Origin: Actinomycetes bacterium
GTDB lineage: Bacteria > Actinomycetota > Acidimicrobiia > Acidimicrobiales > RAAP-2
Assembly: GCA_021799915.1 (NCBI GenBank)
Contig: JAJYZN010000188.1
Location: 1 to 5,206, forward strand
Length of the DNA: 5,206 bases
Direction: 5' to 3'
Positions 132 through 5,206 of this stretch are shown here, one piece after another (the first letter of the stretch is position 1; the number at the start of each line of letters is the position of its first letter). The notes under the pieces were generated by a model. It did no database searches. It saw only the letters and a program-made list of their open reading frames with translations, and was not told the origin of the DNA. The position numbers and the translations under genes were made by a program.

Positions 132-1484
132 TTGGCGCTGGCCTCATGGGTGGGAGTGCCTTCCACCGCGGCAGGGGCCGCAGCAGTGAGAAGCGCCGCC
201 ATCTCGGGGTCGTCCGCGACTCCAGGCGTGACGGCTCCAGCCCTGCCCCAGACCACTGCGGCCCGAAAGGGTGCCCTGTGGCTGGCCAGCCAATTCGTCC
301 CCGCCGGGTACATCCCCAGCGCGCCGGGTTCCACCACACCTGATCTCTCGTCCACGGCCCAGAGCGTTCTGGCTCTTTCGGCGGCCGACGTGGATCTCCC
401 CACGGCCCGGGCCGGTCTCGCCTACCTTCAGTCCCACCAGAGCGCGTACGTGACAGACGAGGGCGCAACGGGCCCCGGACAGGTGGCGCAGCTCATTCTC
501 GACACGGTGGCCCTCGGGGGAGATCCTCGGAACTTCGGCGGGACGGACCTGGTCACAGAGCTCTTGGGGACCGAACAGACGAGCGGGCCTGATGCCGGGC
601 TCTTCGGTACGCAGGCCCAGGTCACAGGCTATGCCGCCGGCACCTACCAGCAGGGTCTGGCCCTCATAGCGCTGGCAGCCGCCGGGGTCCGAGGCCAGAG
701 CTCCACCGAGGCCGCCATCTCGTGGCTGGAGGGTGAGCAGTGCCCAGGCGGAGGTTGGACCACTCCGGATCTGGCGGTCAACACATGTGGCGGCACGCCG
801 TCGAATTTTGCCGGGCCCGACACGAATTCCACCTCCCTGGCCGTGGACGGCCTTGCGGCGCAGGGCGCGCTGGCTTCGTCGGCGGCCACCGGTGCACTCG
901 CCTTCCTCACCGCCGGCCAGGACGCTGATGCCGGCTGGAGTTACTACCCCAATACGAAGACCACACCGGGGACCACCGATCCCGACTCGACGTCCCTGGT
1001 GATCCAAGCTCTCATGGCCCTCGGTGTCTCACCGTCGAGCGCGTCGCTGGTGAAGGGCTCGTCGGATCCGGTGTCGGCGCTGCTGGCCTTCCAGTTGCCT
1101 TCGGGCACCGGTGCTGGAGGCTTCTACTACCCGCCCGCCCCGGCTCCGGCGAACCTCATCGCCACCTACGAGGCCGTACCGACCCTCACTGGCCTCACGC
1201 TGCCCTTCGGTCCTTCAGGTGGCGGCTACTGGCTGGTGGGGGCCGACGGTGGGATCTTCGCCTTCGGGAACGCCACCTACCAGGGTTCGCTGCCGGGCCT
1301 GGGTGTCGACGTGCACGACATCGTGGGCATGACCGCCACCGCCACAGGTGGCGGCTACTGGATCACCGAGCGTACAGGTGGGGTCCTGGCCTTCGGCGAC
1401 GCCGAGCCGGCGGGCTCGATGGCCGGGACCGGTGTCTCCGACGTGGTGGCGATCGTGGCCAGCCCGGTCCGAACGGTGTCGTGA
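132..1484 (+). CDS. Secreted prenyltransferase/squalene-cyclase-like repeat protein with C-terminal GGGYW repeats
   Basis: The encoded protein has about 450 residues and is probably an exported alpha-alpha-barrel protein. Helical repeats with QW-like Gly/Trp turns are visible: AISWLEGEQ..GGGW (about 195-209) with TNSTSLAVDGLAAQG (231-245), FLTAGQDADAGW (258-269) with DSTSLVIQALMALG (285-298), and LLAFQLPSGTGAGGF (317-331). No canonical DxDD or DDxxD cyclase motif is seen, so a binding role is more likely than terpene catalysis. Residues 363-446 form two 43-residue GGGYW-type repeats. The start is uncertain: TTG 132 is the first accepted start codon, but hydrophobic, Arg-preceded sequence continues in frame upstream (RFLLAFILALASW) to a stop at 75-77. 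The real signal peptide therefore probably begins earlier, at CTG 102 or CTG 78, or across an indel. The gene ends in a GTGA overlap with the next one. Actinobacterial relatives, as I recall, sit beside SCO2322-family and ECF genes. The ligand is unknown. Confidence 0.85.
   Translation: MALASWVGVPSTAAGAAAVRSAAISGSSATPGVTAPALPQTTAARKGALWLASQFVPAGYIPSAPGSTTPDLSSTAQSVLALSAADVDLPTARAGLAYLQSHQSAYVTDEGATGPGQVAQLILDTVALGGDPRNFGGTDLVTELLGTEQTSGPDAGLFGTQAQVTGYAAGTYQQGLALIALAAAGVRGQSSTEAAISWLEGEQCPGGGWTTPDLAVNTCGGTPSNFAGPDTNSTSLAVDGLAAQGALASSAATGALAFLTAGQDADAGWSYYPNTKTTPGTTDPDSTSLVIQALMALGVSPSSASLVKGSSDPVSALLAFQLPSGTGAGGFYYPPAPAPANLIATYEAVPTLTGLTLPFGPSGGGYWLVGADGGIFAFGNATYQGSLPGLGVDVHDIVGMTATATGGGYWITERTGGVLAFGDAEPAGSMAGTGVSDVVAIVASPVRTVS
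1216..1475 (+). repeat. Two tandem 43-residue GGGYW/GG-(I/V)-(F/L)-AFG repeats
   Basis: Unit 1 starts at residue 363 (nt 1218) and unit 2 at residue 406 (nt 1347). Both read GGGYW, then GG(I/V)(F/L)AFG(N/D)A, then GS(L/M)(P/A)G.GV, followed by a valine-rich strand. At DNA level a 17-nt match (caggtggcggctactgg) recurs exactly 129 nt apart, at 1216 and 1345. Such repeats usually occur in longer runs in actinobacterial secreted proteins and look like beta-propeller or beta-sheet blades. Only two are present here, which is too few for a closed propeller by itself. Confidence 0.85.
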
Positions 1485-2515
1485 CCCGGTCCGGCGTCGG
1501 GCGTCGGCATGCGGAGCGGGCGGTCGCCGCCGCGCTCGTGGCGGTGGCCGGCCTGGGGGTCGGCTCGATAGGGGTCGCGCTCCCGGCTTCGCCGGCGTCA
1601 GCCAATCCTCAACTGGCGGGCTGCACCACTTCAGTGGGAGTGGTGGTAGCGGTGGACTTCGCACCGTGGGGCGGCCCAATCAAACGGGGATGCGGTGGGA
1701 CAGCGAGCAACGGCGTGGTCGCCATGCACGATGCCGGGTTCACAACGACAGGGGTGTCGGCCTATGGGACAGCGTTCATCTGCCGGATCGACGGGGACCC
1801 GGCGTCGACCTCGTGCAGCTCGACCCCGCCAGCCAACGCGTATTGGGGGTTCTGGATCGCCGATCCGGGGGAGACAGCCTGGTCCTACAGCACCGAGGGG
1901 GCCGAGTCGATCTGTCCGGCTCCCGGCAGCACCGAAGCGTGGACCTTCGGAGCCAACCGGTCTCCGCCAACCTTCTCCCCGTCCCAGGTGCGGGCGACCA
2001 CAGTCTCGACGTCGGGGAGCACGCCGACGTCCACGTGCGGTGCTGCACCCAAGACTTCCAGTCCGAGCCGCACAGGGACAAAGACATCGAGCGGTGGGCA
2101 GAGCCCGAAGAGCACAGGTACGGACTCGAGCACGTCGAGCGCGCCGGCCCCCACCACGTCGACCACGTCCCCTGCGGGCCGCGTCGGAGTGACCACCACC
2201 TCACCTCCCACCTCATCCGATGGTGGTGGAAGCACAGCAGGGACTCGTGCCTCGTCCAGCACCGCCCCCACGTCACCCGCGCCCGGCAGCTCCCTCTCGG
2301 CGCGCCGGCAGGTGGCACCAGGCGACGGGGGCAGCGGGTCGCCGAACAGGTCTCCCAGGATCGTCACGGCCACCCCGCTCCACAGGAGCGGAGGTGGTGA
2401 TCGGGGCGGAGGTTCACCGGTGTCGTTCTTGGTGGGAGCAGCCGTCTTGCTCGTGGTCGGTGCCGGAGCGATCGTCGCCGTCCGTCGCCGTCGTCGGCAG
2501 GGCCCCGAGGGCTGA
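1481..2515 (+). CDS. SCO2322-like membrane-anchored extracellular protein (DUF4430-like domain, Ser/Thr stalk)
   Basis: The protein has 344 residues. Residues 1-41 form a signal peptide with a basic n-region, an Ala/Val/Gly core and an ASA|N cleavage site. Residues 42-160 are a compact domain with Cys 48, 71, 101, 112 and 145 and the string SAYGTAFICRIDG (93-105), YWGFWIADPG (121-130), WSYSTEG (134-140) and a final W-T-F (154-156). This order of motifs resembles SCO2322-family proteins and, more distantly, the DUF4430/transcobalamin beta-domain pattern (G..I..I.G, then YW..., then a late aromatic strand). Residues 161-312 are a Ser/Thr/Pro/Gly-rich stalk with Cys 186, probably extended. Residues 314-334 form a transmembrane helix followed by RRRRR, a stop-transfer anchor. 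The GTG start overlaps the previous stop as GTGA, and no strong Shine-Dalgarno precedes it, so translational coupling is likely. The protein should display its small domain outside the cell, tethered near the ECF transporter. The biochemical role is not established. Confidence 0.85.
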   Translation: MTRSGVGRRHAERAVAAALVAVAGLGVGSIGVALPASPASANPQLAGCTTSVGVVVAVDFAPWGGPIKRGCGGTASNGVVAMHDAGFTTTGVSAYGTAFICRIDGDPASTSCSSTPPANAYWGFWIADPGETAWSYSTEGAESICPAPGSTEAWTFGANRSPPTFSPSQVRATTVSTSGSTPTSTCGAAPKTSSPSRTGTKTSSGGQSPKSTGTDSSTSSAPAPTTSTTSPAGRVGVTTTSPPTSSDGGGSTAGTRASSSTAPTSPAPGSSLSARRQVAPGDGGSGSPNRSPRIVTATPLHRSGGGDRGGGSPVSFLVGAAVLLVVGAGAIVAVRRRRRQGPEG

Positions 2516-2518
2516 TCG

Positions 2519-3778
2519 ATGCGCCGGAGGACCCGACGGTGGGCGGTCGCCGACGATCGCAGGGTACCTCGGACACTGCATCCAGTGGCGTGGTGGATTT
2601 GGGCTGTGGGCCTGGCCACCGCGGCCAGTCGGACCACCAACCCTCTGCTCTTGGCGTTGGTGCTGGCCGTCCTCGGTGTGGTGGTGGCGAATCGGCGCAG
2701 CGAGGCGCCCTGGGCTCGGGCGTTCAAGTACTACTTGGCCATGGCCTTGGTGGTGGTGGGCATCCGGGTCGTCTTCCGGACGATCTTCGGGGGAGATATC
2801 AACGCCGAGGACATGCACGTGCTGTTCACCTTGCCCCACGTTCCCCTCCCGTCCTGGGCGGCAGGGGTCCAGCTCGGGGGCCCGGTCACGGCCGAAGGAA
2901 CCCTGGCGGCCCTCTACAGCGGGCTGCAGCTCGGCTGCCTGCTGTGCTGTCTCGGAGCGGCCAACGTCCTGGCCAATCCCAAACGGGCCTTGCGCGTTCT
3001 CCCCGGTGCGCTCTACGAGTTGGGGGTGGCCGTGGTGGTGGCACTGAGCGTGGCCCCGCAACTGGTCGAGAGCTTCCAGCGGGTGCGACGGGCTCGCAAG
3101 CTCAGGGGAGCACAAGGACGGGGACTGCGCGTGCTTCGAGGCATCGCCGTTCCGGTTCTCGAGGGGGCGCTGGAGCGAGCCCTGTGGTTGGCCGCGGCCA
3201 TGGACTCGCGCGGGTACGGGCGGACCGGCGGGGTATCGCGACGGGTGCGGGTATTCGTTGGGTTGTGCATGGTGGGTGGGATGTGCGGGCTGTGCGCCGG
3301 TGCGTACGGACTTCTCGACGCCACCGCACCTCTGCCACTGGGCGTGCCGACCCTGATCGCCGGTGGGCTGTGCTGCGCGGTTGGACTGGCCCTGGGCGGT
3401 CGCCAGGTCCACCGGACCCACTACCGGCCAGATCCCTGGAGGGCTTCCGAATGGGTGGTGGCCGGATCCGGCGTGTTCGCCGCCGCCGTGCTCTTCGCCG
3501 GGCTCGGCGCCCACGGTCACGGGCTCAATCCGTCTACCCACCCCCTGACTTGGCCCTCGCTCCCCGTGGGGCCGGCGTTGGGGATCCTGACGGCTGCGGT
3601 GGCCGCAGTGGTGGCACCACCGCCGCGGCGTCCAGCGCGCGGCGGAACCCGACCCGCTCCACCACCAGCACAGGAGACCACATGCCAGGCCGGCTCCGAG
3701 CGCGCCGCCCCACCGACCTCGCGGCCTGCCGGGAAGATCGTCGGCGTGGGATCCCAGGCAAGCGGTGTCCCGAGGTGA
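2519..3778 (+). CDS. Energy-coupling factor transporter transmembrane component T (EcfT/CbiQ family)
   Basis: This 419-residue integral membrane protein would link the S component to the ATPases of an ECF importer. Hydrophobic segments lie near residues 22-36, 42-58, 70-86, 129-151, 160-180, 244-265, 272-293, 311-330 and 345-366. Between them the cytoplasmic coupling region carries both diagnostic Arg-Gly motifs: ARKLRG (192-197) and MDSRGYG (228-234), within E-x-F-x-R-x-x-R-A-R and A-M-D-S-R-G contexts typical of EcfT. The ATG follows GAGGG (2507-2511) at 7-nt spacing and starts 3 nt after the previous stop. The protein is longer than the roughly 260 residues of classic EcfT, because extra membrane segments follow the coupling helices and a Pro/Arg/Ser-rich tail spans about 367-419. 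I recall similar C-terminal regions, including the YRPDPWRA.EW string at 302-312, in Streptomyces homologues. The tail overlaps an alternative start of the next gene. Eight cysteines sit in or near membrane segments. The T-component call is firm. The substrate cannot be told from this subunit. Confidence 0.93.
   Translation: MRRRTRRWAVADDRRVPRTLHPVAWWIWAVGLATAASRTTNPLLLALVLAVLGVVVANRRSEAPWARAFKYYLAMALVVVGIRVVFRTIFGGDINAEDMHVLFTLPHVPLPSWAAGVQLGGPVTAEGTLAALYSGLQLGCLLCCLGAANVLANPKRALRVLPGALYELGVAVVVALSVAPQLVESFQRVRRARKLRGAQGRGLRVLRGIAVPVLEGALERALWLAAAMDSRGYGRTGGVSRRVRVFVGLCMVGGMCGLCAGAYGLLDATAPLPLGVPTLIAGGLCCAVGLALGGRQVHRTHYRPDPWRASEWVVAGSGVFAAAVLFAGLGAHGHGLNPSTHPLTWPSLPVGPALGILTAAVAAVVAPPPRRPARGGTRPAPPPAQETTCQAGSERAAPPTSRPAGKIVGVGSQASGVPR
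3602..3629 (+). other. Strong RNA hairpin inside the 3' part of the T-component gene
   Basis: Bases 3602-3613 can pair with 3618-3629 around a GCAC loop (3614-3617), giving 12 positions with one A-C mismatch (3607/3624) and one G-U wobble (3609/3622). No U-run follows, so it is not a standard intrinsic terminator. It lies in the non-membrane tail region of the T component, about 40 nt upstream of a good ribosome-binding site. Hairpins are frequent by chance in DNA this GC-rich. Confidence 0.3.
3672..3676 (+). promoter_or_regulatory. Strong ribosome-binding site (AGGAG) for an alternative ATPase start at ATG 3682
   Basis: AGGAG lies 5 nt before an ATG at 3682-3684 that is in frame with the ATPase gene. 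Using it would add 31 basic residues (beginning MPGRLRARRP) to the ATPase and overlap the T-component gene by 97 nt. It is the best Shine-Dalgarno/ATG pair in the second half of the window. The GTG at 3775, by contrast, has no clear ribosome-binding site but does have the GTGA overlap. Confidence 0.45.
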
Positions 3779-5206
3779 TCGCCTTCGAGCAGGTGAGCGT
3801 GACCTATGACGGAGGGGAGTCACCTGTCCTGCGGGCTGTGACGGCGCGGGTCGAAGAGGGCGAGCTGGCCCTGGTGGTAGGTCGGACCGGGGCTGGCAAG
3901 TCCACGTTCCTCGGAGCGGTGAACGGTCTGGTGCCCCATTTCACGGGTGGAACGCTCGTCGGGCGGGTGACCGTTTTCGGCCGCGACACCCGAACGCACA
4001 AGCCACGGGAGCTGGCCGATGTGGTGGGTGTGGTGGGCCAGGATCCCCAGGCCGGCTTCGTCACCGACGTCGTCGAAGAGGAGCTGGCCTACGGGATGGA
4101 GCAGCTGGGCCTGGCTCCGAGTGTCATGCGTACCCGGGTGGAAGAAGCCCTTGACCTCCTGGGCATCGCCGACCTTCGAGACCGGCCGCTGGTCTCGCTC
4201 TCAGGGGGGGAGCAGCAGCGGGTGGCCATCGGATCGGTGCTCACCACCCACCCCCGAGTGCTGGTGCTCGACGAGCCGACGTCGGCTCTCGACCCCACCG
4301 CCGCCGAAGACGTGCTCGCCGCGGTCACCCGGTTGGTGCACGACCTGGGTGTCACGGTCCTCATGGCCGAGCACCGGCTGGAGCGGGTGGTGCAGTTCGC
4401 CGACCGGGTCATCGAGGTGCGGTCGGACGGCTCGGTGCTCGAGGGCCCTCCCGAGAGCATGTTGGCCGTCACCGACGTGGCGCCCCCGGTGGTCCAGCTC
4501 GGCAGATTGGCCGGATGGGACCCCCTGGCCCTGTCGGTCCGAGACGCCCGGCGCCGTGGCGGGTCGCTGAGAGCGATGCTGTCCGGCCAGGCACCCCCGC
4601 CCAGCCGCTCCCTGCCGGCTCCCGGTGGCCCAGGCCATGGCGACACGGTCCTTACCGCCCGCCGCATCGTCGTCCGCTACGGCGATGTCACCGCGGTGCG
4701 CGGTGTCGACCTCGCCCTCTGCGCCGGACAGATCGTGGCTCTCATGGGACGCAACGGTTCGGGGAAGTCCTCCCTCCTTTGGGCGCTCCAGGGCTCCGGC
4801 CCACGACGCAGTGGCACCGTCGACGTGCGCGGCGAGGACCCGAAATCACTCTCGTCCTCTCGGGCGAGGTCTCTGGTGGGGCTGGTGCCCCAGACGCCGG
4901 CCGATCTCCTCTACCTGGACACCGTGGCCGAGGAGTGCGCCCAGGCCGACAGGGAGTCGAGCGGGGACTCCCCGAGCCGGCCAGGCTCGCTCCCGGCCCA
5001 CCCGTCCACCACCAGGGACATCCTCGATCGCCTGGTGCCGGGCGTACCAGACGATAGCCACCCCCGCGACCTCTCCGAGGGCCAGCGGTTGGCGCTGGTG
5101 TTGGCCATCCAGCTGTCGGCCGGCCCCGACGTCGTCCTCCTCGACGAGCCGACCCGGGGACTCGACTACTCGGGGAAGCAGAGCCTCGCCAACATCCTGG
5201 CCGAGC
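3775..5206 (+). CDS. ECF transporter ATP-binding protein with two fused ABC domains (partial, 3' end outside window)
   Basis: The open frame runs 477 codons to the window edge with no stop. It encodes a fused pair of ABC ATPases (EcfA/EcfA', CbiO-like) that would power the T component from the cytoplasm. Numbering from GTG 3775, domain 1 has Walker A GRTGAGKST (36-44), Q-loop Q89, signature LSGGEQQR (142-149), Walker B with catalytic Glu (LVLDE, 163-167), D-loop SALD (170-173) and switch H200. A linker of about 60-70 residues follows. Domain 2 has Walker A GRNGSGKSS (325-333), Q-loop Q373, signature LSEGQR (433-438), Walker B VVLLDE (453-458) and D-loop RGLD (461-464). Its switch His lies beyond the window. 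The domain-2 signature has Glu where LSGGQ has its first Gly, so the two ATP sites may be unequal. GTG 3775 overlaps the T-gene stop as GTGA and begins the ABC fold at the usual place, which is why I chose it. ATG 3682 is an in-frame alternative with a better ribosome-binding site. An S-component gene probably follows. Confidence 0.95.
   Translation, partial: MIAFEQVSVTYDGGESPVLRAVTARVEEGELALVVGRTGAGKSTFLGAVNGLVPHFTGGTLVGRVTVFGRDTRTHKPRELADVVGVVGQDPQAGFVTDVVEEELAYGMEQLGLAPSVMRTRVEEALDLLGIADLRDRPLVSLSGGEQQRVAIGSVLTTHPRVLVLDEPTSALDPTAAEDVLAAVTRLVHDLGVTVLMAEHRLERVVQFADRVIEVRSDGSVLEGPPESMLAVTDVAPPVVQLGRLAGWDPLALSVRDARRRGGSLRAMLSGQAPPPSRSLPAPGGPGHGDTVLTARRIVVRYGDVTAVRGVDLALCAGQIVALMGRNGSGKSSLLWALQGSGPRRSGTVDVRGEDPKSLSSSRARSLVGLVPQTPADLLYLDTVAEECAQADRESSGDSPSRPGSLPAHPSTTRDILDRLVPGVPDDSHPRDLSEGQRLALVLAIQLSAGPDVVLLDEPTRGLDYSGKQSLANILAE

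Follow-up and report, generated by a model that had tools for sequence, protein, structure and literature searches.

A riboswitch-linked actinobacterial operon that may capture corrinoids with split transcobalamin-like proteins and import them through an ECF transporter

Introduction

Can an importer of the energy-coupling factor (ECF) type be served by a receptor outside the cell, or does its S component alone pick up the vitamin, as in the textbook ECF transporter? The question is raised by a stretch of 5,206 nucleotides from an Acidimicrobiales bacterium (GenBank contig JAJYZN010000188.1, assembly GCA_021799915.1; at full length referred to as the window), in which four coupled genes encode a toroid protein (gene A), a membrane-tethered protein (gene B), the transmembrane subunit EcfT and a double ATPase. 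A preliminary description of this DNA had taken A and B for the two halves of transcobalamin, made as separate chains, that hand a ligand to the importer encoded next. We consider it quite likely that the complete operon, riboswitch-A-B-EcfT-EcfA-A'-S, serves the capture and import of a corrinoid, most likely cobalamin, and we base this on which genes are present and how they are coupled, the fold predicted for gene B, fusions among relatives, the riboswitch match with its association across genomes and the B12-dependent enzymes of the genome. The ways in which many Gram-positive bacteria collect B12 from outside are little known, and the abstracts of the reports on CbrT and BtuM describe knowledge of B12 uptake as limited.

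Results

Gene B (1481-2515; window features lie on the plus strand unless stated otherwise) encodes a predicted secreted, membrane-tethered protein with a transcobalamin-like beta domain. The motif order read earlier from its small domain was found as described, with YGTAFICRIDG at residues 95-105, YWGFWIADPG at 121-130 and the late W-T-F strand in AWTF (153-156). Hydrophobic segments span residues 14-32 and 316-334, the latter a C-terminal transmembrane segment (2426-2482) followed by an Arg-rich tail, and residues 172-300 form a linker that is 71% Ser, Thr, Pro and Gly. According to fold comparison of the predicted model, about residues 50-159 (1628-1957) adopt the transcobalamin beta-domain fold, and in profile-profile comparison the domain and DUF4430 align end to end; together these bear out the DUF4430-type fold suspected before, and controls indicate that fold and profile likeness both exceed chance. 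Identity to the animal carriers is 15-20% over the aligned part. Within the beta domain W122 and W134 are invariant, and cysteines C71, C101 and C112 are conserved, as is C48 just ahead of it. In the model, strands 52-55 and 59-66 come after a helix (41-47), and may be set beside the beta-hairpin insert past the helix that is a feature of the transcobalamin-like SLBB clade and bears its ligand-stacking residue. A Pfam scan to E 10 matched no family in gene B, and the hidden Markov model of PF14478 (DUF4430) found nothing in gene B, in the 37 members of its alignment or in its own genome. A profile of gene B alignment A2 gave nine matches above E 0.09 among PDB sequences, none of them a transcobalamin, with the best alignments lying in the linker and anchor. 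The SCO2322 family (NF040672) is matched at E 8.4e-4 with 19.7 bits, under its cut-off of 85.

Upstream of gene B, and sharing four nucleotides with it (GTGA, 1481-1484), lies gene A (113-1484), whose product is a predicted secreted alpha/alpha-toroid of the squalene-cyclase fold. PF13243 (SQHop_cyclase_C) scores 28.4 bits against a gathering score of 26.1. The reported succession of a toroid gene and a membrane-tethered protein with a 4-nt overlap holds. The toroid domain itself (207-1208) is matched by a custom-built profile at E 2.6e-165, and the SCO2321 family (NF053823) at E 8.5e-42 with 143.5 bits, under its cut-off of 300; neither the SCO2321 nor the SCO2322 family name carries a function. 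The closest named homologues of both genes are from Acidimicrobiales bacteria, and of the candidates scored, 574 proteins fall in the gene A family at E <= 0.001. DxDD, the motif of class II terpene cyclases, was found neither in gene A nor in any of 120 homologues (the best 120 of the 574), which argues against a cyclase. In the same number of homologues (P0032-P0151, 120 listed of 574, proteins limited in length) the gene B profile had no match at E 10. The C-terminal part of gene A consists of two GGGYWLVGADGGIFAFG-type repeats (1216-1400). This repeat is dispersed in the genome, and of the 99 matches that the window has there almost all fall within it.

Relatives provide a separate line of evidence on whether A and B belong together. 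Loci fetched from same-class relatives with a gene B match number 20 (all but that of genome G125). The B domain is present in 19 of them, the exception by the family profile being L054, and the toroid at E <= 1e-3 in six of these; five more (L037, L040, L041, L046, L048) have a tblastn toroid match that the toroid profile missed, and that profile is narrow. Toroid and B share one reading frame, counted here from stop to stop, in three of the 19 (toroid first in L036 and L038, B first in L039). A search of named genomes, seeded on gene B, uncovered 120 stretches encoding a relative, the best 80 of which were kept and gave 79 loci, mostly from Streptomyces and otherwise from Kitasatospora, Micromonospora, Catellatospora, Dactylosporangium, Hamadaea and a Solirubrobacterales metagenome-assembled genome; the search leans to Streptomyces and its counts are not population frequencies. 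Fusions occur in 65 of the 79, with B before the toroid in 63 and after it in two, and every one of the 79 also holds a B-only reading frame. L151 and L036 agree in length and riboswitch position and represent a single contig, so both sets together contain 67 distinct fusions, and these support A and B working as one unit. A model of a natural fusion, compared with intrinsic factor and transcobalamin, deviates by a root mean square of about 23 Å and does not reproduce their domain arrangement, so that it brings no A-B interface to light, and among the 50 rows of its VIA listing there is no transcobalamin chain. In 71 of the 79 named loci, EcfT has a B gene no more than 1.5 kb upstream and is succeeded by the ATPase and S. 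The eight remaining loci all end near the operon except L097.

The importer announced for the region downstream is indeed encoded there. EcfT (2519-3778) starts 3 nt past the end of gene B and matches PF02361 (CbiQ) above the Pfam cut-off, and the fused EcfA-EcfA' double ATPase, with two ABC_tran domains above cut-off, overlaps EcfT by 4 nt and runs off the window (3775-5206). In the organism's assembly (G000) the ATPase gene ends at C105:4265 and in turn overlaps by 4 nt a gene for an S component (C105:4262-5233), which lies outside the window. EcfT, two ATPases and an S component, the full set of an ECF transporter, are present together. The S component falls slightly short of the cut-off of PF12822 (ECF_trnsprt; 29.3 bits against 30.7), has a weak, sub-cutoff match to the FolT family and none to the CbiM or CbiN families at E 0.1; against solved structures its best E is 0.41, with three matches at E <= 10, none named CbrT. 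These scores, and the predicted regulation by a cobalamin riboswitch, do not place it clearly in a non-corrinoid family.

Upstream of gene A, the cobalamin riboswitch family RF00174 is matched at C103:1583-1505 (minus strand) with 29.9 bits and E 1.2e-5, under the gathering score of 31.5, and this is the only match found in G000. On the window alone, where the native 5' region is missing, Rfam at gathering scores gives nothing. Among the 20 class loci, 13 carry RF00174 above the gathering score; in four of the remaining seven (L014, L037, L052, L053) the sequence stops at the genes or a short way upstream, L043 has a match below the score (29.9 bits), none was found in L049, and L054, with no B domain, has none above the score. 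The proposed survey of homologous operons for S components and B12 riboswitches was extended genome-wide to 21 genomes, counting B at E <= 0.001, S at E <= 1e-10 and the riboswitch at E <= 0.001. Both B and S occur in 19 genomes. In 18 of them (G095 being the exception) a riboswitch is no more than 5 kb away from B or S, and this is where 22 of the 24 riboswitch matches in the 19 genomes lie. For G000 the distance from riboswitch to B was measured through the window, the two being on separate contigs, and in G006, G020 and G115 the riboswitch adjoins S, with the B match on a different contig. The two genomes with a B match and no S match (G125, G144) have weak B matches with stop codons. RF00174 is present close to the A/B genes in all eight of the 79 named loci given to Rfam; for L086 and L117 the above-score match is on the opposite strand, and L086, the one of these two examined further, also has a sense-strand copy below the score (28.2 bits). 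Among the matches listed for the genomes of 27 named loci, RF00174 occurs in 27 of 27, counted genome-wide and not placed relative to the loci.

Several loci depart from the common layout. In L041, L042, L044, L046, L047, L048, L050 and L051, B is divergent from the ECF genes and the riboswitch lies on the B strand. Besides its main operon, L040 has a second short B-domain frame (1098-1664, plus strand) just downstream of a cobalamin riboswitch (900-1040). Genome G020 apparently has the system in two forms, a close one (A-B-EcfT on C200) and a more distant one, represented on C208 by S and a riboswitch. In Hamadaea (L145), a ribonucleotide reductase large subunit (5987-8827, minus strand) is under a cobalamin riboswitch of 110.6 bits, back to back with the B gene, for which there is a separate riboswitch match. 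L086, from Streptomyces anulatus, encodes a divergent 550-aa protein (4147-5799, minus strand) with squalene-cyclase-type matches and a C-terminal DUF4430 match (13.8 bits), all sub-cutoff, adjoining a same-strand cobalamin riboswitch (5760-5836, minus); it is possibly a one-chain transcobalamin-like protein.

The genome itself seems to have use for B12. Of seven B12-binding domain matches in G000, six score above cut-off, and five were identified further. They are methionine synthase MetH, which exceeds the cut-off of its family, a B12-binding radical SAM protein, a CarH-like regulator that falls short of its cut-off, and two C-terminal domains of methylmalonyl-CoA mutase. CobN and CbiC, the only two corrin-ring synthesis steps sought, were not found in this 95.7% complete assembly and are likely absent from the organism.

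As for the window ends, positions 113-1361 equal contig C103 of G000, and from 1271 onward the window corresponds to C105 with one mismatch in 3936 bases. Both contigs terminate in the GGGYWLVGADGGIFAFG-type repeat, and the window and C103 sequences differ within the repeat stretch 1216-1400. Positions 1-112 (no strand assigned) correspond to the opposite strand of that contig (C103:3591-3709), where C103 is meant, and both C103 matches have seven bases in common at 113-119. The left end is thus probably a chimeric contig join and 1-112 a non-native stretch, and because of this join the native riboswitch and the leader of gene A are missing from the window. In G000 gene A extends upstream of position 113, where it encodes a hydrophobic leader and starts with ATG (C103:1395), so that the TTG at 132 is not its native start.

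Discussion

The steps we infer would run as follows. Low intracellular cobalamin would let the riboswitch permit expression, and A and B would be exported, with the C-terminal helix and a long flexible linker keeping B attached to the membrane. Toroid and beta domain might then jointly enclose a corrinoid, much like the two domains of transcobalamin, and B would carry it to the S component for ATP-dependent uptake driven by the ECF module. Whether this amounts to a widespread actinobacterial ECF class with a two-part extracellular receptor, in which a tethered beta domain encloses a corrinoid against the separate toroid and passes it on to S, the halves being split, fused in both orders or duplicated as a bacterial counterpart of animal B12 carriers, seems to us an evenly balanced question. 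The earlier idea that the two transcobalamin halves are separate chains here and hand a ligand to the importer is supported, by the beta fold, by an S component not clearly of a non-corrinoid family and by the natural fusions; a reservation is that the toroid is closer to squalene cyclases than to transcobalamin.

In another scenario gene B alone would capture the corrinoid, and toroid A would serve cell-wall anchoring, spacing or another partner. It would account for the B domain outnumbering the profile-detected toroid in class loci (19 of 20 versus six) and for the dispersed repeats that end gene A, and 5np4 is, by its title, the human transcobalamin beta domain alone, crystallised with cyanocobalamin. 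We consider it rather improbable given the 67 fusions in either order, the transcobalamin precedent and the narrowness of a toroid profile that overlooked five tblastn-detected toroids. A different reading, gene A as an ordinary squalene/hopene cyclase-like enzyme beside an unrelated vitamin ECF transporter, draws on the PF13243 match and on relative L036, whose toroid is best matched by squalene-hopene cyclases. Gene order conserved with the ECF genes and the upstream cobalamin riboswitch speak against such an enzyme, and the absent DxDD, the hydrophobic leader and the beta-domain fusions led us to reject it; we give it a negligible chance.

The nature of the ligand is a different matter. That it need not be cobalamin, as cautioned before, can now be tightened to a corrinoid being by far the likeliest ligand. 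Import of cobinamide, another cobamide or cobalt in place of cobalamin has, in our estimate, a minor chance: CbiQ/CbiO-type ECF modules also serve cobalt, to go by family names, and ECF-CbrT, an importer for cobalamin, also takes up cobinamide according to the accessible text of its report (eLife 2018, PMC5997447). With CobN and CbiC not found, however, cobalt by itself would contribute little to making corrinoids, the S component resembles ECF_trnsprt and not CbiM or CbiN, and the predicted beta-domain fold is that of cobalamin carriers.

If capture and import of a corrinoid is what the operon does, a conserved gene group whose first two genes have family names without function, present in Streptomyces, several Micromonosporaceae, a Solirubrobacterales genome and Acidimicrobiales relatives, would be a B12 acquisition system. 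Extracellular receptors would be added to the ECF transport mechanism, and natural split and fused versions of transcobalamin would be at hand for testing how the animal carriers work and arose, with a two-domain binding mechanism that can be taken apart in a bacterial counterpart.

Among the closest known systems are members of the SLBB superfamily defined by Burroughs et al. 2007 (PMC1796856), whose accessible text describes bacterial fusions of beta domain and toroid in either order, located in CbiO/CbiQ operons and predicted to scavenge B12, and reports the transcobalamin-like clade from planctomycetes and low-GC Gram-positives and, more rarely, from euryarchaea. Common to those proteins and ours are a predicted secreted beta domain and toroid adjoining ECF-type genes; different from what that text covers are the occurrence in Actinomycetota, the split halves, the linked S component, the cobalamin riboswitch and a beta-domain family that Pfam DUF4430 does not detect. 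In Streptomyces coelicolor, Borovok reported B12 riboswitches at nine genes or clusters (as retold in the accessible part of PMC4991794), and genes A and B are relatives of the SCO2321 and SCO2322 families that score far under the curated cut-offs. The literature searched, with most subscription papers beyond reach, yielded no description of an actinobacterial system or a split form. In contrast to ECF-CbrT, for which the accessible text (PMC5997447) mentions no capture protein outside the cell, we propose one here. Unlike animal transcobalamin, intrinsic factor and haptocorrin, the putative, presumably ligand-binding carrier consists of two polypeptides in this genome, its beta half is membrane-anchored and distant in sequence, and its toroid is nearer to squalene cyclases. 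We therefore call the actinobacterial split system, as predicted here, an unreported variant of a known, experimentally thin transcobalamin-like type.
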